From positions 1-64,000 of the forward strand of contig CALJNA010000032.1 of the NCBI GenBank assembly GCA_937981955.1: DNA of 64,000 bases. Reading direction: 5' to 3'. Positions 424-16,965 of this stretch are shown here, one piece after another. The stretch is from an uncultured Granulosicoccaceae bacterium. Lineage in GTDB: Bacteria; Pseudomonadota; Gammaproteobacteria; Granulosicoccales; Granulosicoccaceae. The notes under the pieces were generated by a model. That model was given only the letters and a program-made list of their open reading frames with translations, was not told the DNA's origin and ran no database searches. The translations under genes and the position numbers were made by a program. How positions within the stretch are numbered: position 1 is the first letter of the stretch; the number at the start of each line of letters is the position of its first letter.

Positions 424-462
424 GTTGCTTGAGGCCAGTTTTTAGCAATGGCCTCAAGCAAC
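424..462. terminator. 14-bp stem-loop over the stop codon of the alcohol dehydrogenase gene
   Basis: A perfect 14-bp stem (424-437 pairs with 449-462) encloses an 11-nt loop. The minus-strand stop codon (454-456) of the iron alcohol dehydrogenase lies inside the stem. There is no clear U-run on either side, so it may be a factor-assisted terminator or a 3' mRNA-stabilising hairpin at the end of the operon. Confidence 0.5.
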
Positions 463-1599
463 AGACTCATAAAGGGCTCTGGTATTTTTTGCCGTCATCT
501 CTACAGGGTTTCCGCCAACACTTGGATCCCGCAGCGCAGAATCAATGAGCCTTTCAAAATCCGGATTGCTAACACCTAACTCAGTCAGATTTTTTGGAAT
601 TGAAAAAGCATCATTAAACTCATCGACAAATTGACAAAAGCCATCAAACCCGCCTTCAATATCGAGATAGGCTGCAACATGATTAAAGCGATCGCGAATG
701 GCTGGTTCATTAAACTTCAAGACACTTGGCATAAACACAGCGTTGGTTGTGCCGTGATGTGTGTGATGCATAGCCCCGATAGGGTGGCTTAGTGCGTGTA
801 TTGCACCCAGACCTTTCTGAAATGCGGTAGCACCCATGGATGCGGCACTCATCATATTGGCACGAGCGTCCAGATTGCTTCCGTTGTTGTAGGCTTCGGG
901 AAGATTGTCTTTGACCAGGCGCATGCCTTCCAGAGCAATGCCCTGACTCATTGGGTGATAGTGCGGGCTGGAATAAGCTTCAACACAATGTGCAAATGCA
1001 TCCAGACCAGTGCCTGCGGTAATCGCTTGAGGCATGCCCACGGTGAGTTTGGGATCGCAAATAACGACCACGGGTAACATTTTCGGGTGAAAGATAATCT
1101 TTTTCTCTTCGCTTTCTGAATTGGAAATAACGCTGGCACGTCCAACTTCAGAGCCAGTGCCTGCGGTTGTCGGCACCGCGATAACCGGTGCAATTGCATC
1201 TGCATCCGCCCGGGTCCACCAGTCACCGATATCTTCGAAATCCCACAAAGGTCTTTTTTGTCCGGCCATAAATGCGATTGCTTTGCCAAGGTCCAGCCCC
1301 GAGCCTCCACCGAAAGCAATCACGCCATCAAATCCACCGTCTCGATAAGCCTGCACACCGGCATCCACATTTTTATCGTTCGGATTCGGATCAACCTCGG
1401 AAAAGATGGCGCGACCAAGTCCAGCTGCATCCAGCAGATCGAGTGTGCTGGTTGTGATATCCAAATTAGCCAGGCCCCGATCAGTGACAAGCAATGGTTT
1501 TTGTATGCCGGACGATTGGCAGGCTTCAACAACCTCGTTTATGCGATCGGTGCCAAAGCGAATATTGGTTGGGTAGGACCAGTTTCCGACAAGGTTCAT
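454..1599 (-). CDS. Iron-containing (group III) alcohol dehydrogenase
   Basis: A 381-residue cytoplasmic NAD(P)-dependent alcohol dehydrogenase of the Fe-ADH family, of usual length. The nucleotide-binding motif GGGSGLD is at 97-103 and TTAGTGSE at 144-151. Likely metal ligands are D200, H204, H268 and H282 (in DAFAH and HALSHPIGAMHHTHHG). It is the last gene of a minus-strand operon, 27 bp after an aldehyde dehydrogenase. By context it should oxidise an alcohol, perhaps a gamma-glutamylated amino alcohol, to the aldehyde used by its neighbour. The substrate is inferred only; the family assignment is firm. Confidence 0.9.
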   Translation of the reverse strand: MNLVGNWSYPTNIRFGTDRINEVVEACQSSGIQKPLLVTDRGLANLDITTSTLDLLDAAGLGRAIFSEVDPNPNDKNVDAGVQAYRDGGFDGVIAFGGGSGLDLGKAIAFMAGQKRPLWDFEDIGDWWTRADADAIAPVIAVPTTAGTGSEVGRASVISNSESEEKKIIFHPKMLPVVVICDPKLTVGMPQAITAGTGLDAFAHCVEAYSSPHYHPMSQGIALEGMRLVKDNLPEAYNNGSNLDARANMMSAASMGATAFQKGLGAIHALSHPIGAMHHTHHGTTNAVFMPSVLKFNEPAIRDRFNHVAAYLDIEGGFDGFCQFVDEFNDAFSIPKNLTELGVSNPDFERLIDSALRDPSVGGNPVEMTAKNTRALYESVA

Positions 1600-1626
1600 A
1601 AGGTATTTCTCATTCTATGGTTTCTC

Positions 1627-3000
1627 TCAAGCTCGCTTGAGGTGGAAAGACTTTGGTCTTGTCAGGTTGTGATAGCCAATTTCCGACAAGGCGCCACCGC
1701 GTCCTGTGTTTTTGCAACCTGTCCAGCACAAAGCGGGATCAAGATAGTCGCAACGATTCATGAAAACCGTACCGGTGGTAATACGCTCACCGATGGATAT
1801 CGCACGGTCTATGTCCTGGGTCCACAGTGAGGCGGTAAGTCCGAACTCACTATCATTCATGAGCGCCACTGCCTGTTCATCCGACTCCACTGGCATGATA
1901 CCCACGACGGGTCCAAAACTCTCTTCACGCATGATGCGCATATCGTGACTTACATTAGTCAGGATTTGTGGAGACAAGTACGTGCCGCCATCGTCAGTTG
2001 GAAATGTCGTGATGTGTGGCATTGCTCCCTGGTCTACTGCATCAGCGATTTGAGAACGAACCAGGTTTGCAAAACGCACGTTTGCCATGGGACCGAGGGT
2101 GGTGGCTTCGTCGAGTGGATTTCCCAGTGTGTAGTTACTGACTATTTCAACGGCACGCTCAACAAATGTATCGAACAGCTGTTGCGCAACATAGATGCGT
2201 TCAATACCACAGCAACACTGGCCTGAATTGAACATGGCGCCGTCAATGAGGGTGTCAACTGCCGCGTCCAAATCTGCATCTTCCATAACATAACCTGGGT
2301 CTTTGCCACCGAGTTCCAGGCCCAGGCTGGTGAAGGTGCCTGAAGCTGCTGCCTCGATCGCCTTACCGCCTTTGACTGAACCGGTAAAATTGACAAACCC
2401 GAAATGATTCGCAGCAATTAACGAAGCGGTGGTGTCATGATCGATAAAGAGATTAACAAACACGTCTTCAGGTACACCGGCAGAGTGAAATGCTTTTGCC
2501 ATTCGTTCACCCACCAACGGCGTTTGCGAAGCGTGTTTCAACACTACTGCGTTCCCGGCAATCAGAGCGGGCGCAACTGTGTTCACAGCTGTCATGTATG
2601 GATAGTTCCAGGGCGCGATCACAAGCACTAACCCGTGTGGTACGCGTTGAATATAGCGTTTAAATTGCTTGTCATTGGATACTTCTATCGGCGCCAGTGC
2701 AGATTTGGCAATGTTGGCCATATGAGAAGCTCGCTCTTCGAAACCACCGAACTCGCCACCATAGCGAACTGGTCTTCCCATTTGCCATGCTAGCTCGGGC
2801 ACGATTTCGTTGTTCATGGCCCCAACTGCTGCAACACCGGCCTGAACTACTGCTATGCGTTCTTCTAAAGGCAACGCTGCCCAGGCAACTTGAGCAGAGG
2901 TTGCCTTGTTAATGTTATCGGTTGCTTGGTTTAATGATTGTAAGGTTCTTTCAGCGTAGATCGAACCGTCAATTGGTGATACACATTTTATCGAATTCAT
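1627..3000 (-). CDS. NAD(P)-dependent aldehyde dehydrogenase
   Basis: A 457-residue aldehyde dehydrogenase superfamily protein. The general base E229 sits in LELGGK and the catalytic cysteine is C263 in GQCCCG; IAPWNYP near 128 and FTGSVKGGKAI near 205 complete the cofactor site. Three consecutive cysteines at the nucleophile position are uncommon. It follows the glutamine-synthetase-like gene with only 5 bp between them, so the two are surely co-transcribed. Context suggests it oxidises an aldehyde produced by the downstream Fe-ADH, possibly while attached to glutamate. Succinate-semialdehyde or gamma-glutamyl-aldehyde dehydrogenases are the closest functional models. Confidence 0.9.
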   Translation of the reverse strand: MNSIKCVSPIDGSIYAERTLQSLNQATDNINKATSAQVAWAALPLEERIAVVQAGVAAVGAMNNEIVPELAWQMGRPVRYGGEFGGFEERASHMANIAKSALAPIEVSNDKQFKRYIQRVPHGLVLVIAPWNYPYMTAVNTVAPALIAGNAVVLKHASQTPLVGERMAKAFHSAGVPEDVFVNLFIDHDTTASLIAANHFGFVNFTGSVKGGKAIEAAASGTFTSLGLELGGKDPGYVMEDADLDAAVDTLIDGAMFNSGQCCCGIERIYVAQQLFDTFVERAVEIVSNYTLGNPLDEATTLGPMANVRFANLVRSQIADAVDQGAMPHITTFPTDDGGTYLSPQILTNVSHDMRIMREESFGPVVGIMPVESDEQAVALMNDSEFGLTASLWTQDIDRAISIGERITTGTVFMNRCDYLDPALCWTGCKNTGRGGALSEIGYHNLTRPKSFHLKRA

Positions 3001-3005
3001 GTCTG

Positions 3006-4370
3006 TCAGGCTCGTTCAAATCCGCGGGCAATTTCCCATTGCGTTACCGCATTATCAAAACTTTCCTGTTCCCATTCTGCGCTGCGTGTGTAATGGGCAA
3101 TAACGTCTTCGCCCATGGCCTGCTTCAACATGTCGGACCGATCGAACAGCGTTGTGGCATAGCGTAGTGTTGATGGAATCTCCGGTACTGAATCGTCGTT
3201 GTACAAGTCACCTGTGGCTGCGTCGTCAAGTTCAAGCTTATCTTCAATGCCTTTTATTCCTGCCGCAATTAATGCAGACTGAGCAAGGTATGGGTTTACA
3301 TCAGAGCCTGGAATTCTGCATTCGACTCGAACCGATTTAGTGCTCTCACCACAAAGACGAAAACCTGCGGTTCGATTATCCACCGACCATGCTGTCTTTG
3401 TTGGCGCGAACGTTCCTTTCATAAAGCGTTTGTACGAATTAACATAAGGTGCCAGAAAGATTGTGTATTCCGGTGCATAGTGAATAATGCCGGCCATAAA
3501 CTGCTGCATCAGATCAGACATGCCGTATTTTTTGCTGGAATCGTGGAACGCATTGCTGCCATCCTTCCAGAGTGACATATGTATGTGGCTTGCGCTGCCA
3601 ACTCGATCAGCGTGCCATTTGGGTAGAAAGGTAGCAGAGTAACCCTGCTGCCATGCAATCTCTTTGGTTGCATGTTTTGCAATGCTGTGGTGATCAGCAC
3701 AGGCAAGTGCATCGCTGTAACGAATGTTCAGTTCTTCCTGACCTACTTCGGCTTCGCCTTTGGAGTTTTCTACCGGTATACCCGCTCCATACAAGCCATT
3801 ACGTAAACGCTGCATCACAGGCTCTTCCTTGGTTGTCTGCAATATATTGTAATCCTCGTTGTAACCGCTGATAGGTTCGAGGTTCATGTAATGCTTGCGA
3901 CGCAACTTTTCATACGAGCCCTTGAACAGAAAGAATTCGAGCTCGGTGGCCATCATTGCGCTGTAACCGAGTTGCTCAAGTCGTTCAATTTGTTTTTTCA
4001 GAATGCTTCTAGGGGAATGCGGTACTGGTTCATGCGTATGATGATCAATGATGTCACACAGCACAAGTGCAGTGCGCTTTAACCACGGTAGCACTCTTAG
4101 TGTGGATAAATCGGGTTTCATGACATAGTCGCCAAACCCGGATTGCCAGCTCGTTGCTGCATAGCCTTCCAGAGTACTCATTTCCAGGTCTGTAGCGAGC
4201 AGGTAGTCGCAGCAATGGGTTTCCTGCCAGGCGCTGTCAAGAAAGTTTGAAACATGGAAGCGCTTACCCATGAGTCTTCCTTGCATATCGATCAGGCATA
4301 CCAGAACGGTGTCGATTGTACCGTTCTCCGCAGCTGATTTAAGTGAGTCGAGATCTAGAAACCCTTTCAT
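3006..4370 (-). CDS. Glutamine synthetase family ligase (gamma-glutamyl-amine synthetase type)
   Basis: A 454-residue GS-fold ATP-dependent ligase. It has the ATP and metal motifs ATELEFFLF, EAEVGQEELNI and HIHMSLW, the loop residues NSYKR and NRTAGFRLCG, and the C-terminal VECRIPGSDVNPYL. These patterns resemble PuuA, IpuC and GlnA3/GlnA4-type enzymes, which attach glutamate to an amine, more than nitrogen-assimilating GlnA. The neighbours support that role: transporter, alcohol and aldehyde dehydrogenases and an amidohydrolase, with no ammonium-assimilation genes. The actual amine (ethanolamine, polyamine or other) cannot be read from sequence. Confidence 0.88.
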   Translation of the reverse strand: MKGFLDLDSLKSAAENGTIDTVLVCLIDMQGRLMGKRFHVSNFLDSAWQETHCCDYLLATDLEMSTLEGYAATSWQSGFGDYVMKPDLSTLRVLPWLKRTALVLCDIIDHHTHEPVPHSPRSILKKQIERLEQLGYSAMMATELEFFLFKGSYEKLRRKHYMNLEPISGYNEDYNILQTTKEEPVMQRLRNGLYGAGIPVENSKGEAEVGQEELNIRYSDALACADHHSIAKHATKEIAWQQGYSATFLPKWHADRVGSASHIHMSLWKDGSNAFHDSSKKYGMSDLMQQFMAGIIHYAPEYTIFLAPYVNSYKRFMKGTFAPTKTAWSVDNRTAGFRLCGESTKSVRVECRIPGSDVNPYLAQSALIAAGIKGIEDKLELDDAATGDLYNDDSVPEIPSTLRYATTLFDRSDMLKQAMGEDVIAHYTRSAEWEQESFDNAVTQWEIARGFERA

Positions 4371-4402
4371 ACAAAAGCTCTGTTAAGAAAATGAGTATTT
4401 AT

Positions 4403-4430
4403 ACCACCACCCCGTATTGGGGGTGGTGGT
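4403..4430 (-). promoter_or_regulatory. Intercistronic hairpin between dctP-like and GS-like genes
   Basis: Eleven perfect base pairs (4403-4413 with 4420-4430, all C/A against G/T) close on a 6-nt loop, just after the stop codon of the solute-binding-protein gene. There is no U-run, so full termination is unlikely. In transport operons such hairpins often protect the upstream message, allowing more binding protein than enzyme. That role is inferred. Confidence 0.6.
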
Positions 4431-4441
4431 GTTTGCCGGAT

Positions 4442-5500
4442 TTAACCGTAGCGATAAGGTCGTCCGGCTTTTTGCATGTCGTCGTTATACTTGCGAAAAA
4501 TCTCAACGACCTTGGCTTTAGTCTCAGACTCTTTTGCAATTTCGTCCCAGAACGCCACCGCTGCGCTTTCAACTTCTGCCCATTCTTCATCAGGTATAGT
4601 CGTCAGCTGCATCTTGGTGCCATTGACGCGAAGATCTGCTTCGCCACCCCAATACCACCACTGTCGATAATAATGACTTTGCTCCATGCAAACTGACAGA
4701 AGCTCTTTCAAATGCTCCGGCAGTTCTTCATAGCGTTCCATATTGGCGAAGAAGTGACCGATCCATGCACCGGAAATGTTGTTGGTTAAAAAATAATTGG
4801 TTACGTCAGCCCAGCCGACCGTGTAGTCCTCGGTAATTCCGGACCATGCGATACCATCAAGTTCTCCGGTTTGTACAGCGACTTCAATGTCTTCCCAGGG
4901 CAATGTCACGGGCACCACACCAAACTGGGACAGGAATCGGCCAGCGGTGGGGAAGGTAAAGACCCGTTTACCTTTCAGGTCGGCCAGAGAGTTGATTGGA
5001 TCTTTTGTGGCAAAGTGACAAGGGTCCCAGGAACCGGCGGATATGTGCTTCACACCAACCTTACTGTATTCAGCATCCCAGATTTCATTTAGTCCGTATT
5101 GGTTGAATAGTACGGGCACATCGAGTGAATAACGGCTGCCAAATGGAAAGTAACCACCAAATACTGTTACTTCAGTTGGTGATGCCATGGAGTCATCATC
5201 CGATTGTACTGCGTCTATGGTGCCTCTTTGTAATGCCTGAAAGAGCTCGCCGGTTGGTACCAGCTGATCAGCGTAAAACAGTTCAATCTCCATCTCGTCA
5301 CCGGCAATTTTGTTGAACTTGTCGATGGCTGGTTTTACTACATGCTCCGCCAGTGCTGTGCCTGCATAGGTTTGCATTCGCCATTTGATTTTAGATTGAG
5401 CTATTGCTGGTGCAGCCGTGATTGCTCCGGCGGCTGGTAGTGCAACTGCGGCTTTCTTTATAAAGGAACGTCTGTTGGTTTTCTGATCTGTATCACTCAA
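4442..5500 (-). CDS. dctP: TRAP transporter periplasmic solute-binding protein (DctP/TakP type)
   Basis: A 352-residue substrate-binding subunit of a tripartite TRAP importer. I place the start at TTG 5500 because GAGGAAAAG lies just upstream; a longer reading from 5557 would overlap dctM. The N-terminus carries a twin-arginine motif (NRRSFIKK), a hydrophobic stretch and a likely cleavage site after PAIAQ, so export may be by Tat. The body has DctP-family signatures (LADLKGKRVF, VAVQTGELDG). The GAWIGHF region resembles the TakP subgroup, whose known ligands are organic acids. It feeds substrate to the catabolic genes downstream. Confidence 0.88.
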   Translation of the reverse strand: MSDTDQKTNRRSFIKKAAVALPAAGAITAAPAIAQSKIKWRMQTYAGTALAEHVVKPAIDKFNKIAGDEMEIELFYADQLVPTGELFQALQRGTIDAVQSDDDSMASPTEVTVFGGYFPFGSRYSLDVPVLFNQYGLNEIWDAEYSKVGVKHISAGSWDPCHFATKDPINSLADLKGKRVFTFPTAGRFLSQFGVVPVTLPWEDIEVAVQTGELDGIAWSGITEDYTVGWADVTNYFLTNNISGAWIGHFFANMERYEELPEHLKELLSVCMEQSHYYRQWWYWGGEADLRVNGTKMQLTTIPDEEWAEVESAAVAFWDEIAKESETKAKVVEIFRKYNDDMQKAGRPYRYG

Positions 5501-5526
5501 AGTCTTTTCCTCATTTATTTCCGTCT

Positions 5527-6852
5527 CTATTTGCCGTAGACGGTTTCCGGCAGCCACAGTGCTATTTGTGGAAACACCATGACCAGTGTAAGAGCCAAAA
5601 TCATCACCAATACGAATGGAACAATTGATCTGTATATGTCGATCAACGTAATCTCTGGTGGCGACATGGCGCGCATAAGAAACAGGTTGTAGCCAAACGG
5701 AGGTGTCATGTAAGCCACCTGCGTTGTAATGGTGTACAAAACGCCGTACCAGATCAGGTCGAAACCCAGCGCACCTACTAAAGGAATATAGAGTGGTGCC
5801 ACAATAACCAGCATGGCTGTGTCATCAAGAAAAGTGCCCATGGCAATGAAACTGAGTTGCATGAGGATCAGAATCATCCAGGGCGAAAGCCCTAACTTTT
5901 CAGTAAACAGACTTTCAATTGCTTTAACCGCACCCAGGCCGTCGAATACCGCACCAAATGCCAGCGCTGCGAGAATGATCCACATAAACATACACGTAAT
6001 GCCAAGCGTGTTTTTTAAGGATGTGTCGAAGACCTTCCATGTCATACGACCTTTGAGTAGCGCAGCAACAAATGCCGCAATTGCGCCGATGGCTGAACTT
6101 TCCACCAATGAGGTCCAGCCGTTCACGAATGGAATCATCATTGAGAAGAAGATAACCAGCGGCAGCAAGCCTGCGAACAGCAGCCGGATTTTTTCCGATT
6201 GAGGCATGTCGCGTTCTTCTTTGGACAGAGAAGGCCCAAGCGTTGGATTAATCTTGCACCGAATGGCAATGTAAGTAATGAACATTGCCGCCATCATCAG
6301 GCCTGGTACTACACCGGCAAGCCATAATTGCCCGACGGGTTGTCGTGCAATCATTGCGTAAAGTACCAGTACAACTGACGGTGGCACCAATATGCCAAGA
6401 GAGCTTCCCGCTTGAACTACACCGGTAACCATGCGCTTATCGTAACCCCTGCGAAGCAGCTCAGGTAGCGCAATGGTGGCACCGATTGCCATGCCGGCCA
6501 CGGATAGTCCGTTCATTGCAGAGATCAGCACCATAAGTCCGATGGTGCCAATGGCGAGTCCACCGTTTATGCCACCCATCCAGACATGGAACATTCTGTA
6601 CAGGTCTTTTGCGATGCCGCTTTCCGACATGATGTAGCCCATGAAAACAAACATGGGAACGGTTAGCAGCGGATACCAGCGCATGACCTTAATGGTTTGT
6701 GCGAAAGCGATATCAAAGCCACCGCGTTCACCCCATAGAAACAATGCGGCGATAACGGCTACAAAACCGATTGCACCGAAAACACGCTGCCCCGAAAAAA
6801 GCAATACCATCATTGCAGTGAACATCAGTAACGCGATCATCTCGTAACTCAT
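5527..6852 (-). CDS. dctM: TRAP transporter large membrane subunit (DctM)
   Basis: A 441-residue very hydrophobic protein with about a dozen membrane segments and DctM motifs such as GFVAV, SGMAIGATIALPEL-like loops and PPSVVLVLYAMI. It forms the Na+-driven channel that accepts ligand from DctP. The ATG at 6852 is preceded by AGGAG at suitable spacing, whereas an upstream in-frame TTG (6858) is too close to that site. Only 2 bp separate it from the end of dctQ. Confidence 0.92.
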   Translation of the reverse strand: MSYEMIALLMFTAMMVLLFSGQRVFGAIGFVAVIAALFLWGERGGFDIAFAQTIKVMRWYPLLTVPMFVFMGYIMSESGIAKDLYRMFHVWMGGINGGLAIGTIGLMVLISAMNGLSVAGMAIGATIALPELLRRGYDKRMVTGVVQAGSSLGILVPPSVVLVLYAMIARQPVGQLWLAGVVPGLMMAAMFITYIAIRCKINPTLGPSLSKEERDMPQSEKIRLLFAGLLPLVIFFSMMIPFVNGWTSLVESSAIGAIAAFVAALLKGRMTWKVFDTSLKNTLGITCMFMWIILAALAFGAVFDGLGAVKAIESLFTEKLGLSPWMILILMQLSFIAMGTFLDDTAMLVIVAPLYIPLVGALGFDLIWYGVLYTITTQVAYMTPPFGYNLFLMRAMSPPEITLIDIYRSIVPFVLVMILALTLVMVFPQIALWLPETVYGK

Positions 6853-6854
6853 GC

Positions 6855-7421
6855 TCAAATCTCCTGCCCGCGGATTCGCAGAATGTCTTTAAAAAGCTCA
6901 GACAATGCCTGCAAAAGCATTAACAGTATGCCCACACAGATGAGCAGTTTGATCGGCCACAAATACGGTCGCCAGATAGTTCGACTGCGTTCAAGCGTGC
7001 CAGGTTCTTTTGTCCCGGTTATTAATTCGCTAAAAAAGCCAAGAGGATCGGAGCCGAAATAACCCAGCGAGTATGCAGTGGAGCCAAGTCCGCCCCACAA
7101 CAGCACCAGCAAATAAGCAATCAAACAGAAAACGGTAATTGCATCGACAGTGGCTTTTCTTTTTAACGACCAATTGTCATAAAAGAGATCCATGCGAACA
7201 TGGGAACCCATTTGAATGGCATAAGGACCGCCCAGAATGAAATACGCCACCATGGCGAACTGAGCCGCTTCAAGTGTCCACAAAGAGGGTTGATCGCTAA
7301 ATTTACTGATAATCGACCACAGCAGAATTCCCATCATGGCGAAAATGCCGTAAGTCATAATGCGGCCAATGCCTCGGTTAAACCAGTCAACGGCTGTTAT
7401 GTAACCGCGCATAAACTTCAC
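6855..7421 (-). CDS. dctQ: TRAP transporter small membrane subunit (DctQ)
   Basis: A 188-residue protein with about four transmembrane helices and the DctQ-type core (SLWTLEAAQFAMVAYFILGG, GSHVRMDLFY). The start is GTG 7421, which overlaps the stop of the amidohydrolase gene as GTGA and has AGGAG seven bases upstream. A longer reading from 7523 would run deep into the neighbour and add a non-hydrophobic, arginine-rich lead, so I reject it. It bridges DctP docking and DctM transport. Confidence 0.88.
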   Translation of the reverse strand: MKFMRGYITAVDWFNRGIGRIMTYGIFAMMGILLWSIISKFSDQPSLWTLEAAQFAMVAYFILGGPYAIQMGSHVRMDLFYDNWSLKRKATVDAITVFCLIAYLLVLLWGGLGSTAYSLGYFGSDPLGFFSELITGTKEPGTLERSRTIWRPYLWPIKLLICVGILLMLLQALSELFKDILRIRGQEI

Positions 7422-8173
7422 GCTTCGGCTCCTTCTTGTGATGCGTTTTCCAATCGGTCGAGGCTTTTGGTTAACCAGTGATTCAGATGCGAGGCGATTG
7501 ATTTGCAAGCGCTGTCGTCGCACAATAAATCATTGCGTAGTTCTATCATGATGTTCAGGTATTGATTTTTCAGACCATGAAGTTTTAGTGTGTGGGTTAC
7601 ACCGTCCTCCGGTCCATAAGGCTCATTCAATCGGACATTAAATGCAGCTGAGGCTGTGCTGAGCATTGCGTCGGCTAGTCTTGTGTCTTCGTCGTGTAGC
7701 AAACCAATTTCAACGTCACGACGAACACCCTGATAGACGGGTGTGAAACTGTGTACGGTAACCAGCACCGGATTGGTTGCGCGCTGTGAAAGAAGATTTG
7801 TCAGTTTGTTTTTAAACGGTTGGTAGTATGTGTTAACGCGATGTTGTCTTTCAGTTGCGCTTATACCGACATTGCCTGGCACATCATAAATCTCGCTACG
7901 AACGATCATCGCATCTGACGCATCAGGAGGGCGATTGCAATCGTAAATTAATCTTGAAACGGTACCCTCGACCAATACGGCGTCGAGCTGATCGGCTATC
8001 AATCGCGCGGTTGTTTTTGCTCCGGGGTCCCAGGCGATATGGCTTTTGGCGACGTCTTGATCAAGGCCTAAGTTGTTGTAGTGTTCAGGTATGACCGCGC
8101 TGGCGTGCTCACACACCAATACAACCCGGTGTTGTCCGTTCGTGTTGTATACATTAACGGCCGTTTCAGTCAT
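7418..8173 (-). CDS. N-formylglutamate amidohydrolase family hydrolase
   Basis: A 251-residue member of the FGase family, recognisable by CEHAS (near 21-25), SRLIYDCNRPPD (near 73), VTVHSFTPV and ELRNDLL. Characterised members (HutG type) hydrolyse N-formylglutamate in histidine breakdown, but no other hut gene is near. As first gene of an operon with a glutamyl ligase, it may instead release glutamate from a gamma-glutamyl intermediate. That is inference. It is translationally coupled to dctQ by a 4-bp overlap. Confidence 0.85.
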   Translation of the reverse strand: MTETAVNVYNTNGQHRVVLVCEHASAVIPEHYNNLGLDQDVAKSHIAWDPGAKTTARLIADQLDAVLVEGTVSRLIYDCNRPPDASDAMIVRSEIYDVPGNVGISATERQHRVNTYYQPFKNKLTNLLSQRATNPVLVTVHSFTPVYQGVRRDVEIGLLHDEDTRLADAMLSTASAAFNVRLNEPYGPEDGVTHTLKLHGLKNQYLNIMIELRNDLLCDDSACKSIASHLNHWLTKSLDRLENASQEGAEA

Positions 8174-8254: not shown

Positions 8255-9118
8255 ATGGGCCGGGTTACCATTGCTGTTCAACTAAAGAAACACAATGAAA
8301 ATCTAACTCCGCTGGAGCGGCAGCTCAGCGACGTTATTTTGCAAAATTACCCTGTATCCGGACTGGGATCTATTACCAGTCTGGCTGACGCAGCAGGTGT
8401 ATCAACACCAACGGTTGCGCGGCTGGTGCAAAAGCTTGGATTTAGCGGATACCCTGAATTTCAACAGTCTCTAAGGAAAGAACTTGATGAAGCTATATCC
8501 AGCCCATTGTCCAAGCGCGAAAAGTGGGCAAACGATGCACCAGATGAGCACATCCTGAATCGGTTTACCAAAGCAGTCATCGACAATATCAGTCAATCAT
8601 TGGGAGAGGTTGATACAAAAGAGTTTGACAAGGCTTGTGATCTTATTTCCGATTCAAGACGTCGCGTGTTTATTGTCGGTGGTCGAATAACCCGAACCCT
8701 GGCTGATTATTTCTTTCTGCACCTTCAGGTTATACGTGATCAGGTTATACACGTGGCGTCGAATTCAAACGCGTGGCCACACTATTTACTTGAAGCCAAT
8801 AAGAACGATGTGGTTGTCATCTTTGACATTCGCCGTTACGAGAACTCCACGCTTCAGCTTGCAAAGATGGCAAACGAGAGAAAAGCCAAAATTGTGTTGT
8901 TTACCGATCAGTGGACTTCGCCGGTGGCAAAGTATGCTGACATTACTTTTCGAAATAGGATATCAGTGCCGTCGGCGTGGGATTCCAGCGTTACCAGTAT
9001 GTTGCTTGCTGAAATACTGATAGCTCAAGTGCAGGAGTGCGACTGGGGAAAAACAAAAAAACGCATGGAAGTCCTTGAGGATATGTTTGATCAGACGAAA
9101 CTGTTTAGAAAGCTGTAA
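8255..9118 (+). CDS. RpiR/MurR family transcriptional regulator (HTH plus SIS domain)
   Basis: A 287-residue DNA-binding regulator. Residues 1-77 form an RpiR-type HTH (LTPLERQLSDVIL, SITSLADAAGVSTPTVARL). Residues from about 130 onward form a SIS sugar-phosphate-binding domain (RRVFIVGGRITRTLADYF, VVIFDIRRYENSTLQLAK). The start ATG at 8255 follows a G-run at 8246-8250. It is divergent from the amine/TRAP operon and is its likely local regulator. The ligand is unknown; RpiR proteins usually bind phosphosugars, but several control amino-acid or amine catabolism. Confidence 0.88.
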   Translation: MGRVTIAVQLKKHNENLTPLERQLSDVILQNYPVSGLGSITSLADAAGVSTPTVARLVQKLGFSGYPEFQQSLRKELDEAISSPLSKREKWANDAPDEHILNRFTKAVIDNISQSLGEVDTKEFDKACDLISDSRRRVFIVGGRITRTLADYFFLHLQVIRDQVIHVASNSNAWPHYLLEANKNDVVVIFDIRRYENSTLQLAKMANERKAKIVLFTDQWTSPVAKYADITFRNRISVPSAWDSSVTSMLLAEILIAQVQECDWGKTKKRMEVLEDMFDQTKLFRKL

Positions 9119-11309: not shown

Positions 11310-12998
11310 CTATCCGCCTCTGTGTTTAAAACTGTCGCGTCGAAAGCTGTACAGTGCATCGGGGTCAACAGACACATTGACAACAGCAGGTGCATCACAC
11401 GCAAGTGCCGACTCAATGGCCGGTATAACATCGCTTAACTTATCTGCTTTGAAACCTTTCGCGCCGTATAGCTCAGCTACCTTGTCAAACGGTGGGCTGG
11501 ATACGTCAGCGCCAATGTAGCGGCCGTTAAAGAAATCACGCTGGTAAGCTTTTTCGGCGCCCCAACATTGATTGTTCATAACCACTGTAACTGTATTGAT
11601 GTTGTGATCGACTGCGGTGCTGAGTTCAGATAGCGTCATGCCAAACCCGCCATCACCCATTAAGCTGACAACCGGGCGCTCGGGCATGGCGCACTTTACA
11701 CCGAGTCCGCATGCGTAAGAAAAACCCACCAGCCCGAAGTCTAATGGGGTAAATAAGCTTTTTGGTGTCCAGTAATTTAACGCATCGGTGGCCTGCAAAC
11801 ACAATGTGCCTGCATCGAGTGTTATGGCAGCATCTTTTGGTAGAACCGACCTTAATGACTTGAACAGACCCGAGGGTTGCGTAGGGTGAGATAGCAAAGC
11901 AGCGGTGTCACGCTGTTGCAAAAAGTGTTTTCGTTCGTCTACAAATGCGCTGGTCCAGGAATCAGCCTTGTGTTTGAAGTCCAGACTGATCAGTTCCTCG
12001 ATCAGTTGTCTAGCGGCAGTGGGTGCATCGCTCCAGATACCCAGCTCGACCGGAAAAAAGCGCCCAATGGCGGTTGGCTCCAATTCTATTTGAATAATTT
12101 TGGCGTCTTCGTTTATGTTGTCATAGGTGTAGAAAGTAGAATTAAATCCGAGTCTTGTACCCAATGCTAAAATAACATCGGCTTCCAGAACCAGCCTGGA
12201 TGCAACCGGGTTACCTCTGGGGCCCATCTGTCCTGCATTAAGCCGATGTTCAAATGGTATGGCATCTCCATGACCCGGGGATGTCACAATCGGGCAGTTT
12301 AGCTTTTCAGCCAGTTCAACAGCCGCAGCGTGACCATCGGTGTTTTTGATACCGCCACCGGCAACGATTACCGGTTGGCTGGCGCCGCTTAACAGCTTGG
12401 CTGCCTGTTTTATCTCGTGTATACCCGCGGCTGGTTTTGAATGATTGCGATAACCAGCAGGTGCTTGCATGTCTGGGAAATCGGCTTGTGCAGACAGGAC
12501 GTCTCTGGGCAAATTTAACTGTACCGGTCCTTGACGTGGTGACAATGCGGTGCGAAATGCTTCTCGGAACAACTCGGGCACACGATCAACAGAAGGTGCG
12601 GTCCAGGTTTTTTTCGTCACCGGTGTAAATAACGATTGTTGATCCACTTCCTGAAAAGCGTCTCGATAAACATGGCCAGAGGACAAAGCACCGGCAATAG
12701 AAACCACTGGCGAAAAGGCTGCTTTGGCTTGCGACAATCCGGTAACCAGATTGGTGGCTCCCGGTCCATTTTGTCCTGCGAGTATGACACCAGCTTTGCC
12801 GGATGCGCGCGCATAACCGTCGGCCATGTGTGTGCCGGTACGCTCATCGTGCACGCCAACAAACTCGATGCCTTTGGCATCGTAGAGCGCGTCAAACATT
12901 TCCATAGTGGCTGAGCCTATCAGGCCGAACACATAGCGAGTATCTTCTGCTTCCAAGGCAGCAATAGCGGCCGCGCCGCCGGACATTGTTGATGTCAT
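11310..12998 (-). CDS. ThDP-dependent enzyme, acetolactate synthase / sulfoacetaldehyde acetyltransferase-like
   Basis: A 562-residue thiamine-diphosphate enzyme with the three usual domains. The cofactor-activating glutamate is E52 (VHDERTGTHMADGYAR). The middle domain contains VAGGGIKNTD. The ThDP/Mg motif is GDGGFGMTLSEL followed 25-30 residues later by MNN. The segment NNQCWGAEKAYQRDFFNGR resembles the same place in sulfoacetaldehyde acetyltransferase (Xsc) more than in biosynthetic acetolactate synthase. No regulatory small subunit, Pta or sulfite exporter is nearby, so an Xsc role is not proven. A decarboxylase or carboligase acting on a 2-oxo acid is the alternative. Confidence 0.85.
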   Translation of the reverse strand: MTSTMSGGAAAIAALEAEDTRYVFGLIGSATMEMFDALYDAKGIEFVGVHDERTGTHMADGYARASGKAGVILAGQNGPGATNLVTGLSQAKAAFSPVVSIAGALSSGHVYRDAFQEVDQQSLFTPVTKKTWTAPSVDRVPELFREAFRTALSPRQGPVQLNLPRDVLSAQADFPDMQAPAGYRNHSKPAAGIHEIKQAAKLLSGASQPVIVAGGGIKNTDGHAAAVELAEKLNCPIVTSPGHGDAIPFEHRLNAGQMGPRGNPVASRLVLEADVILALGTRLGFNSTFYTYDNINEDAKIIQIELEPTAIGRFFPVELGIWSDAPTAARQLIEELISLDFKHKADSWTSAFVDERKHFLQQRDTAALLSHPTQPSGLFKSLRSVLPKDAAITLDAGTLCLQATDALNYWTPKSLFTPLDFGLVGFSYACGLGVKCAMPERPVVSLMGDGGFGMTLSELSTAVDHNINTVTVVMNNQCWGAEKAYQRDFFNGRYIGADVSSPPFDKVAELYGAKGFKADKLSDVIPAIESALACDAPAVVNVSVDPDALYSFRRDSFKHRGG

Positions 12999-12999
12999 G

Positions 13000-13806
13000 C
13001 TAGGTTTGCTCGTTTAGAAATGAAAGTATCGGTTGGGTAAAAAGTGGCGCATCTTCCAATAATCCCAAATGTTGCAATCGCGGAATGATAAGAGTACGCG
13101 CGCCGTGGATTTCGTTTGCTATTGCATGACTCATGGCAGGCGTGCTGCCAGAATCGTTCTCGCATGTGATCACAAGTGTGGGTGTGCTAATGGGTGTATT
13201 GGGACTTACCAGCTCGCGAACACCGTTTGCTAAAACCCAGGCTGCCTGTGCATAGCTTTCGGCATCGACTTGTTCACGCCAGGCTACAACTTGATTGGCA
13301 CCGTCACTGTTTTGCAGATACTCAGACGTGAACCATCTTTTCAGCGCATCGCTCATCGTTGCTGAAGCGCCTTGCTCTTTTACTTTTTTTGCTCGTAGCT
13401 CGACCTGATGTTGTAATTCCTCGCCACGATTATGCGGCGAATTCAGAATAACCAGGCTGGTTAAATGTTGTGGATAGTCCAGCGCAAATCGTCTGTTGAT
13501 CATGCCACCGATTGAAAAACCGACAACGGACACCTTGGTGAGTTCAAGTGCGTCCAATAGTTTTGCAAGCTGATCGGCATAGACTTTAAGCGACGCAGTC
13601 TGCGGTGGTGGCGCGCTGTCCCCATGCCCATATAAATCGTAGTTCAGCACACGATAACGGCGACTAAACTCCGGCATGTGTTGTTGCCAAAGTTGGCTGC
13701 ACAAGCCAAGCCCGTGAATCAATACTATAACCGGTGCATTCTCAGGACCAACAAGCTCGTAAGCAGTGCCGTCTTCGGTTACACCATGGGTGGGTGTACT
13801 AGACAC
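13000..13806 (-). CDS. Alpha/beta-fold hydrolase
   Basis: A 268-residue alpha/beta hydrolase. HGLGLC (near 31) forms the oxyanion loop; the nucleophile elbow is GFSIGG (near 97); and the catalytic histidine lies in LQHLGLLEDAP near the C-terminus. The overall pattern resembles 3-oxoadipate enol-lactonases and aminoacrylate hydrolase RutD. It overlaps the AA_synth gene by 8 bp (GTG start 13806) and ends 1 bp before the ThDP gene, so it is part of the operon. It probably opens a lactone, ester or amide intermediate made by the flavin monooxygenase; the substrate is unknown. Confidence 0.85.
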   Translation of the reverse strand: MSSTPTHGVTEDGTAYELVGPENAPVIVLIHGLGLCSQLWQQHMPEFSRRYRVLNYDLYGHGDSAPPPQTASLKVYADQLAKLLDALELTKVSVVGFSIGGMINRRFALDYPQHLTSLVILNSPHNRGEELQHQVELRAKKVKEQGASATMSDALKRWFTSEYLQNSDGANQVVAWREQVDAESYAQAAWVLANGVRELVSPNTPISTPTLVITCENDSGSTPAMSHAIANEIHGARTLIIPRLQHLGLLEDAPLFTQPILSFLNEQT

Positions 13807-14395
13807 CTGCCGGATTGTCCACGTCTCTGCCCATTTCTTTCAGGTCTTCGTAGCGATTGCCAATGCGGTGGTTGGGGTGTCCGCCTACCGATGCGCCAAG
13901 TGCAATGATGATTTCATCTTCGGCTGGCGCATCAGGTATGCTTAAGTGGATTGTCTGGTAGTGTGATCGGCGACCGGCGTCATGTTTGTCCATTAACGGT
14001 ATAACCAGGGACGTGCCGGCTCCGCCACGCGTGTTGGCAAACACGAGATAGGTTTTTGCATCTACGGCTTCGCGATACTGGTTTCCAAACCAGAGCGTAT
14101 GCGTTAAACCCTGACCGTGCTCCATCTCACCACCCATGCCAACGACGGATGCCTTGCCATACCCTTCAATGGCATCGCCAGTGACATCCAGTATCATGCT
14201 GGTCAGCAATTTACCCAGAACAGGCCCGTTTTCTCTAATTTCGGGCTTTAAATCTTCAACATAGCCACGTCCAAACCACGGATTTTTAATAATTGCTATA
14301 GCCGACACCAGCTTGGTTGGTGTGTCGATCACCTTGCCACCTTCTTCAATTGTGGTTTGAATGTTCAAAATTGTACGGCGAATGTCTGTAGGCAT
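13799..14395 (-). CDS. AA_synth / DUF1185 family protein
   Basis: A 198-residue protein that matches the so-called amino acid synthesis family. Typical features are IKNPWFGRGYVEDL, GYGKASVVGMGGEMEHGQ and the C-terminal GGHPNHRIGNRYEDL. The family name is historical; to my knowledge no firm biochemical role is established. Its repeated pairing with luciferase-like flavin monooxygenases in catabolic clusters fits what is seen here. Conserved charged residues (E, H in GGEMEHG; R, H near the end) could form an active site. It starts at ATG 14395 with AGGA ten bases upstream. Confidence 0.82.
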   Translation of the reverse strand: MPTDIRRTILNIQTTIEEGGKVIDTPTKLVSAIAIIKNPWFGRGYVEDLKPEIRENGPVLGKLLTSMILDVTGDAIEGYGKASVVGMGGEMEHGQGLTHTLWFGNQYREAVDAKTYLVFANTRGGAGTSLVIPLMDKHDAGRRSHYQTIHLSIPDAPAEDEIIIALGASVGGHPNHRIGNRYEDLKEMGRDVDNPAGV

Positions 14396-14410
14396 TGATT
14401 AGGTATCCTG

Positions 14411-15442
14411 TTAAGAAAAGGCTGGCATCACTTTATCGATAAAGGTTTGCAAAGAGCGCTTTTGTACATCTTGAGATAAACCCATGGACGCATAGTAAAT
14501 AAATGCATCAACGCCTATATCTTCATATTGCTTCAATTTTGCGATCGCCGTTCCGGGGTCACCAAACATCAGATTTTCTTCCAGCATGCCAGGTTCTACT
14601 CTGACATTACCGTCGAGTTCTTCGAGTGGTACGTTGTCCGGGTAGCCATTAACGACATCACCCTTTTTCATCATCAAGTTACCGAACTTGCCCAATACAT
14701 TTCTTATTGCATGCATTGAAGCGGCTCGGTCTGCTTCGGACTCATATACCGATGTGTGGCGCATTAACGCAAAACTGCCATCCCAGCCGTTTGCTTTTGC
14801 AATTGCCTCATCAAGCTGGCCGCGGTATTTCTCTGCTTCACTAAACGGCAGTGTCAGTGGCCAGCACATAATGTTGCACTGGTTGGCTACGGCATAGTCG
14901 AAGGTTATCGGCGAGCGCGCTGCTACCCACATTGGCACATCACTTTGTAGTGGCTTTGGGCAGGATGTGGATTTTGGGAATTGCCAGTACTCGCCGTTGT
15001 GTTCAACATCGCCTTTCCAAAGTTCTTTCACCAGCGGCAACATCTCCTGCATGTATTTCCAGGAATCTGATTGTTGCAGCCCAGGTTTCATCCGGTCGAA
15101 TTCTCGCTGATAGGCACCAGAGCCTAAACCCAATTCAAGCCGTCCACCGGAAAGTAAGTCCAGCATAGCGGCTTCACCTGCGATGTTTATCGGATGCCAG
15201 TACGCCGCATTGGCAACCCCGCAGCCGAGTCGAATATTCTCGGTATGATCTGCCCACCAGGTCAGCAACTGAAATGGGTTCGGTGCAATGGTCATTTCAA
15301 GTGCGTGATGTTCAGCCGCCCAAGCAATCTCAAATCCGGCCCGGTCAGCCATCTGAATCATTTCGAGCGTGTGGTCGCGGACGCTGGCCATATCGACCTT
15401 GTCGTCCATGCGTTCCAGATTGATGGCGATATGAAATTTCAT
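14411..15442 (-). CDS. LLM-class (luciferase-like) flavin-dependent monooxygenase
   Basis: A 343-residue bacterial-luciferase-family TIM-barrel oxygenase. It has AWAAEHHALEM near the N-terminus, LSGGRLELGLGSGAY near 93, and MWVAARSP and GDPGTAIAKLKQYEDIGVD toward the end. It needs reduced FMN supplied by a reductase, which is not encoded nearby. Relatives include alkanesulfonate monooxygenase SsuD and the pyrimidine-ring-opening RutA, so C-S cleavage or ring opening of a nitrogen heterocycle are both possible. GGAG lies seven bases before the ATG at 15442. It is the second gene of the operon. Confidence 0.88.
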   Translation of the reverse strand: MKFHIAINLERMDDKVDMASVRDHTLEMIQMADRAGFEIAWAAEHHALEMTIAPNPFQLLTWWADHTENIRLGCGVANAAYWHPINIAGEAAMLDLLSGGRLELGLGSGAYQREFDRMKPGLQQSDSWKYMQEMLPLVKELWKGDVEHNGEYWQFPKSTSCPKPLQSDVPMWVAARSPITFDYAVANQCNIMCWPLTLPFSEAEKYRGQLDEAIAKANGWDGSFALMRHTSVYESEADRAASMHAIRNVLGKFGNLMMKKGDVVNGYPDNVPLEELDGNVRVEPGMLEENLMFGDPGTAIAKLKQYEDIGVDAFIYYASMGLSQDVQKRSLQTFIDKVMPAFS

Positions 15443-15489
15443 TTGTCGCTCCGTGTGAGGAATTGAGTAAGCTCAGTTTTTCGTGTGAG

Positions 15490-16965
15490 TTAACGAGGCT
15501 TGAAAGGATTGGCGATAGGATCATCGGACAAATTCATCCAGATCGTTTTGGGCCGCGTGTAGTCGTACACCGCCTGCATGCCTGCCTCACGTCCATACCC
15601 GCTGTTTTTCATGCCACCAAACTCGGCAATTGGGGATATAACGCGGTACGTGTTCACCCAAACTATGCCAGCTTTAACACGTTTAGCCATGCGCATTGAG
15701 CGAGCACTGTCTCGGGTGAATATGCCTGCCGCCAAACCGTGTTTGGTGTCATTGGCAAGTGCAACAACTTCGTCTTCTGTTTTGAATCTTTGTACCGCAA
15801 GAACCGGCCCGAATAATTCTGTATCGACAATGCTCATGCTTTGATCGGGGCACGACACTATAGTTGGTTCAAAATATAAACCCTTTGCTTGCACTCGCTT
15901 CCCACCACACAAAATCTTTCCACCCTCCTGTTCAGCCAATGCTACTTGCGCTTCAATATGAGCAAGCTGTCCTTCGGTACACAACGGACCCATCTCGGTT
16001 TCTTCAGCTTGCGGGTCGCCGATTACAATATGCCTGGCAATATTCGTCATGCGTTCAAGAAATTCATCGGCGATGTTTTCGTGCAGATAAAGTCGTGAGC
16101 CAGCAACGCAGGATTGTCCGGTTGCTGCGAAAATACCGGCAACCGAGCCATTCACCGCGCTGTCAATATCTGCATCGTCGAACACAATGAAGGGCGATTT
16201 TCCGCCTAGTTCAAGCGAGACTTCAGCAAAATTTTCTGCAGAATTTCTAATGATGTGACGAGCCGATTCAGGGCCGCCGGTAAAAGCGATGCGCGCAACG
16301 TCAGGGTGTGATGTCAGTGTTCGACCACAAGGTTCGCCATGGCCGGTAATGATGTTGACAACACCTGGTGGTATCTCTGCTTGTTCAATCAGTTTGCCGA
16401 ACTCCAAAAGAGGTGCTGATGCATGTTCAGACGCCTTCAATACAATCGTGTTGCCTGCGGCGAGTGCTGGACCGATTTTCGTTGCACTTAAAAACATCTG
16501 CGAATTCCAGGGCACAACTGCTGCAATCACACCGAGTGGTTCGCGATCGGTGAAGACGAACATATCCGGTTTATCGATTGGCAAAGTATCGCCGTGAATT
16601 TTGTCAGCAGCGCCTGCGAAGAAGTGCAAATATTCGGCGATGTAGGTCGCCTGCCACGCGGTTTCTTTGAACATCTTTCCGGTGTCGCGTGTTTCGATAC
16701 GGCCAAGGTGTTCAGAGTTTGCTGCCAACAGATCGCCAAGCCGGTGCAAGCACTTGCCTCGTTGAGTTGGCGTCATCTCACCCCAGGGTCCGTCCAGTGC
16801 TCCTTTCGCTGCAGCTACTGCAGCATTCACGTCTATTTCGGTGGCCGCTGGTACGCGCGCCCAGATTTCTCCGCTAGCAGGGTTGAAACTGTCAAAGCTG
16901 GCCTTATCCGATGCGGCAACCCATTTGCCGTCGATAAGCATCGAATACGTTTCTACCTTTTCCAT
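15490..16965 (-). CDS. Aldehyde dehydrogenase
   Basis: A 491-residue NAD(P)-dependent aldehyde dehydrogenase of standard length. E252 lies in LELGGKSPF, catalytic C286 in GQSC, and the cofactor motif FTGGPESARHI is near 228. It resembles betaine-aldehyde or gamma-aminobutyraldehyde type enzymes in layout, but this does not set the substrate. It is the first gene of the operon and divergent from the LysR gene, so it lies immediately next to the palindrome at 17092-17120. It shares little with the shorter aldehyde dehydrogenase at 1627-3000, so the two are not a recent duplication. Confidence 0.92.
   Translation of the reverse strand: MEKVETYSMLIDGKWVAASDKASFDSFNPASGEIWARVPAATEIDVNAAVAAAKGALDGPWGEMTPTQRGKCLHRLGDLLAANSEHLGRIETRDTGKMFKETAWQATYIAEYLHFFAGAADKIHGDTLPIDKPDMFVFTDREPLGVIAAVVPWNSQMFLSATKIGPALAAGNTIVLKASEHASAPLLEFGKLIEQAEIPPGVVNIITGHGEPCGRTLTSHPDVARIAFTGGPESARHIIRNSAENFAEVSLELGGKSPFIVFDDADIDSAVNGSVAGIFAATGQSCVAGSRLYLHENIADEFLERMTNIARHIVIGDPQAEETEMGPLCTEGQLAHIEAQVALAEQEGGKILCGGKRVQAKGLYFEPTIVSCPDQSMSIVDTELFGPVLAVQRFKTEDEVVALANDTKHGLAAGIFTRDSARSMRMAKRVKAGIVWVNTYRVISPIAEFGGMKNSGYGREAGMQAVYDYTRPKTIWMNLSDDPIANPFKPR

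Follow-up and report, generated by a model that had tools for sequence, protein, structure and literature searches.

The window analyzed here, a 64,000-nucleotide stretch from an uncultured Granulosicoccaceae bacterium, starts at base 1 of contig CALJNA010000032.1, so that genes past the alcohol dehydrogenase (ADH) gene lie outside view; the assembly has 4.34 Mb and is 76.7% complete. The ORF list of the window contains seven minus-strand ORFs and a divergent plus-strand regulator gene (Table 1), and all eight named gene families exceed the curated cut-offs in a Pfam profile search. These coordinates and matches agree with the earlier note, made from the sequence alone, which had described a single operon of a GS-like ligase, an Fe-containing ADH, an aldehyde dehydrogenase (ALDH), a TRAP importer, and a formylglutamate amidohydrolase (FGase)-type enzyme with a divergent RpiR regulator. 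The listed DctQ ORF overlaps the FGase gene solely because the ORF finder chose an upstream GTG; an in-frame Met at residue 38 of this ORF would probably place the DctQ start directly past the FGase stop. In the NCBIfam profile search, the ADH remains under all equivalog cut-offs. A separate minus-strand cluster at positions 11310 to 16965 of the window encodes a TPP enzyme, an alpha/beta hydrolase, a PF06684 (AA_synth) protein, a luciferase-like monooxygenase, and an aldehyde dehydrogenase.

Table 1. Genes of the operon and its divergent regulator, with predicted roles (positions in the window)
Feature	Position	Strand	Basis
Fe-containing alcohol dehydrogenase, GETADH (gamma-glutamylethanolamide dehydrogenase) counterpart	454..1599	-	PF00465/PF25137; placed as MED193_10056
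Aldehyde dehydrogenase, GAADDH counterpart (glutamylated acetaldehyde to gamma-glutamylglycine)	1627..3000	-	PF00171 (Aldedh); placed as MED193_10051
Predicted GS-like ethanolamine gamma-glutamyl ligase, ETAGA type	3006..4370	-	PF00120 (Gln-synt_C); best PDB match 5dm3; tree
TRAP binding protein EtoX, Tat-type signal sequence	4442..5557	-	PF03480 (DctP); identity to 4UAB
TRAP large permease DctM, EtoW	5527..6858	-	PF06808
TRAP small permease DctQ, EtoV	6855..7523 as listed; start probably ~7412	-	PF04290
FGase-family hydrolase, predicted gamma-glutamylglycine amidohydrolase (GGAH)	7418..8173	-	PF05013; best PDB match 2odf
Divergent RpiR-family regulator, HTH_6 and SIS	8255..9118	+	PF01418, PF01380; placed as MED193_10021

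The DctP binding protein has 4uab as its best solved match in a PDB sequence search (E = 1.9e-187), far ahead of the next match (9.7e-16). The 4UAB structure is that of the Chromohalobacter salexigens protein Csal_0678 in complex with ethanolamine, which is contacted by Glu220 and aromatic side chains (PLoS Pathog. 2025, PMC12410723). Over 318 aligned residues, the two proteins share 262 identities (82.4%), including 39 of 43 aromatic residues, and all four Glu residues within 4UAB chain positions 195 to 245 are kept; these should include the published Glu220, unless the offset between author and chain numbering is large. The Arg with which TRAP proteins bind carboxylates is missing from Csal_0678 (JBC 2015, PMC4646407). 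When the operon protein was aligned with 16 further DctP pieces from the same genome, it had no Arg in this column, whereas most of the others did. Its closeness to ethanolamine-bound Csal_0678 and the absence of the carboxylate Arg identify the protein as EtoX. TRAP import of such a substrate, which the earlier note regarded as unusual, is already published for ethanolamine (PMC4646407, 4UAB).

The whole gene set also has a precedent. In Phaeobacter sp. MED193, the ethanolamine operon encodes RpiR, gamma-glutamylglycine amidohydrolase, EtoV, EtoW, EtoX, ethanolamine gamma-glutamylase, ALDH, and ADH (Sci Adv 2023, PMC10132767); its EtoX (MED193_10041) binds ethanolamine with a Kd of 7.9 uM, and five of the operon proteins rise on phosphoethanolamine (Table 2 of that paper). 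All eight gene types of this operon (MED193_10021 to MED193_10056) are present in the window in identical order, with the RpiR gene adjoining the hydrolase gene in both; the difference is the host, a Roseobacter there and a gammaproteobacterial MAG here. Ruegeria sp. B32 and Paracoccus denitrificans PD1222 have annotated operons of this same order, and in Sinorhizobium meliloti an amino acid permease replaces the TRAP genes. The MED193 genes are reported to be closely related to those of C. salexigens and A. tumefaciens (reference 32 in PMC10132767, Vetting et al. 2015). The C. salexigens ethanolamine pathway, compared here by its binding protein only, is "demonstrated" according to PMC10132767 and "predicted in silico" according to PMC6529630.

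The GlnA4 ethanolamine pathway of Streptomyces coelicolor (SCO1611 to SCO1615; mBio 2019, PMC6529630), likened here by description rather than sequence, shares glutamylation, two dehydrogenases, and an FGase-family hydrolase with the operon, its last steps being predicted there; the description of the pathway in that paper does not name a TRAP importer. The enzyme predicted to end it, SCO1615, belongs to the formylglutamate amidohydrolase family, which contradicts the earlier premise of a class I amidotransferase at this point. Given these precedents (PMC10132767, PMC6529630, and PMC4646407), the literature already covers the FGase ending and the TRAP import as well as the combination as a whole. 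The operon in the window is therefore not new, nor the undescribed combination it had been taken for, but the already published Eto operon in another host.

The same machinery could in principle serve another small amino alcohol, such as alaninol, 3-aminopropanol, or N-methylethanolamine, as the main substrate, since ligases within this superfamily differ in their substrates and an ADH plus an ALDH would suit any primary amino alcohol. The kept Glu and aromatic residues of EtoX, its high identity to an ethanolamine-bound structure, and the gene order shared throughout with the induced MED193 operon argue against this reading, which we consider very unlikely, and for ethanolamine.

The best solved matches of the ligase are 5dm3 (E = 3.7e-199), which we take to be a C. 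salexigens neighbor of Csal_0678, and 11zs (4.2e-169), with the next at 1.4e-54 (PDB sequence search). Against NCBIfam, it scores 259.3 bits with the GlnA model TIGR00653, short of the cut-off of 429.15 (732.1 for the E. coli GlnA control), and 250.3 bits with the type III GS model (cut-off, 469.6). It reaches 212.8 bits with the gamma-glutamylputrescine synthetase model NF045547 (cut-off, 650), a model that does not cover E. coli PuuA, whose own score is just 198.7. A 32-row tree places the ligase with operon ligases, Ruegeria, and 5dm3, leaving E. coli GlnA and PuuA outside on long branches. The GlnA stretch FDGSS, which presumably has a role in ammonium binding, has no counterpart in the operon ligases in the alignment of the tree sequences. 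Assignment as a true GlnA was rejected on the basis of the TIGR00653 score and the tree. Of the placement among reference ligases proposed in the earlier note, the separation from true GlnA and PuuA is thus obtained, in a tree that took in these two enzymes from E. coli. Resemblance of the ligase at 54.5% does not fix the pathway, because the Paraburkholderia phenoliruptrix ligase, 54.5% identical, has no partner genes nearby. The neighborhood remains in keeping with ethanolamine at loci with another kind of transporter, as in S. meliloti with its amino acid permease and in Thermomicrobium, where a ligase with 47.6% identity adjoins an annotated ethanolamine permease.

Glutamylation of a polyamine (Puu-like) or of isopropylamine (Ipu-like) has also to be weighed, since the E. 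coli Puu putrescine pathway follows the same gamma-glutamylation logic with a GS-like ligase and an ALDH. According to annotation, however, that pathway uses the oxidase PuuB and the hydrolase PuuD where the host has an Fe-ADH and an FGase, and the operon encodes neither a PuuB-type oxidase nor PuuD. With the binding protein being EtoX and the tree parting the ligase from PuuA (across long branches, with IpuC outside the tree), we give such pathways practically no chance; the Puu type was rejected on the tree separation.

The distribution of the operon in named genomes was scanned with the ligase alignment, taking the best 80 of 588 relatives, a sample that leans to near relatives. Room for the whole operon, taken as 5.4 kb or more upstream and no less than 3 kb downstream, was available at 67 of the 80 loci, and the other 13 were set aside. 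Of these 67 loci, 49 show the complete eight-gene set in the order of the window, RpiR being divergent, indicating that the eight-gene set is not a chance assembly. Individual partners are present at 54 (EtoX), 55 (FGase), 61 (ALDH), and 66 (ADH) of the 67 loci with room.

Several loci depart from this arrangement. On the Aminobacter aminovorans plasmid pAA03, typed as conjugative, flavin oxidoreductase genes and bhcABCD flank an RpiR-FGase-ligase-ALDH-ADH core (L158:771-17359). The adjacency of this core to bhcABCD (glyoxylate route) suggests a chain from ethanolamine to glycine to glyoxylate, which would fit glycine as the product. At four loci, namely L139:5747-6029, L142:9986-10049 (the same contig as L057), L140, and L080, the ADH gene follows the ligase gene and no ALDH gene was found nearby, so that the enzyme for the aldehyde step has to be encoded elsewhere. 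In an uncultured Amylibacter MAG (L074:3750-13895), the TRAP genes are replaced, and the ligase, ALDH, and ADH genes adjoin those of a phosphonate-type ABC importer and a HAD-type hydrolase; this arrangement might serve to take up a phosphorylated precursor, for instance phosphoethanolamine.

The FGase-family hydrolase is the sole FGase in the host genome (76.7% complete). Its best solved match is 2odf, Hypothetical protein Atu2144 (PDB sequence search), and its identity to relatives is modest, 38 to 59% at the 80 loci (best 80 of 588 relatives). No NCBIfam model, including that of N-formylglutamate deformylase, matched it at E ≤ 0.001. We also examined 36 genomes of the host family, our own included, counting an FGase above the Pfam cut-off; the ligase of G004 was scored as present on a partial match, and an FGase match of G006 below the cut-off was left out. 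The ligase was found in 30 and EtoX in 29 of the 36 genomes, and both in 27. An FGase occurs in 12 of these 27 genomes and in none of the 9 others. Membership in PF05013 would allow the enzyme to be HutG of histidine breakdown and merely a neighbor of the operon. This is very improbable: besides the missing NCBIfam match, HutU was not found in the host genome (incomplete, as stated), an FGase occurs in the host family only among genomes with both ligase and EtoX, and the FGase gene stands first in the operon in most of the relatives that have room (among the best 80 of 588). HutG was rejected on the first two of these grounds, and the hydrolase is better read as a part of the ethanolamine operon.

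No FGase was found anywhere in the other 15 of the 27 host-family genomes with both ligase and EtoX (G001, G005, G008, G010, G012 to G014, G016, G018 to G020, G023, G024, G026, and G035), of which 12 are at least 90% complete and one is a single contig. Hence, the FGase hydrolase step is not universal, although the genomes, being related, are no independent sample. A PuuD-type enzyme was rejected as a general stand-in: in the per-genome table, G012 is the only one of the 15 with strong PF07722 matches (best E < 1e-30), and its match contains a stop (among the matches listed). Gamma-glutamyl transpeptidase (PF01019) is present in all 36 host-family genomes and therefore discriminates nothing; it could take over the last step in genomes lacking an FGase. 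By eye, no obvious hydrolase is encoded among the neighboring ORFs of the FGase-less loci L138, L144, L147, L148, L150, L154, and L155. A non-orthologous replacement, in which these genomes finish the pathway via a different gamma-glutamylglycine hydrolase or transferase, is a tentative explanation that we rate at somewhat below even.

The locus in the window is almost certainly an ethanolamine utilization (Eto) operon, under the control of RpiR in our model. EtoXWV would import ethanolamine, and the GS-like ligase would couple it to glutamate at the expense of ATP. The protected alcohol would be oxidized by the Fe-ADH and then by the ALDH to gamma-glutamylglycine, which the FGase-family hydrolase is predicted to split into glutamate and glycine. 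We infer precisely which substrate this organism uses, in what order the enzymes act, and the FGase reaction; elsewhere, ethanolamine binding by EtoX homologues (Csal_0678 and MED193_10041) and induction of operon proteins on phosphoethanolamine have been shown. As a prediction, the glutamylation of an imported ethanolamine-like amino alcohol put forward in the earlier note fits both the binding protein and the MED193 gene order, and the cleavage of gamma-glutamylglycine by an FGase-type enzyme that it predicted agrees with the assignment in the MED193 operon (PMC10132767). Ethanolamine from phospholipids is a marine nitrogen source for which the Eto operon is the published route in marine bacteria (PMC10132767), and the window contributes one further host lineage for this operon.
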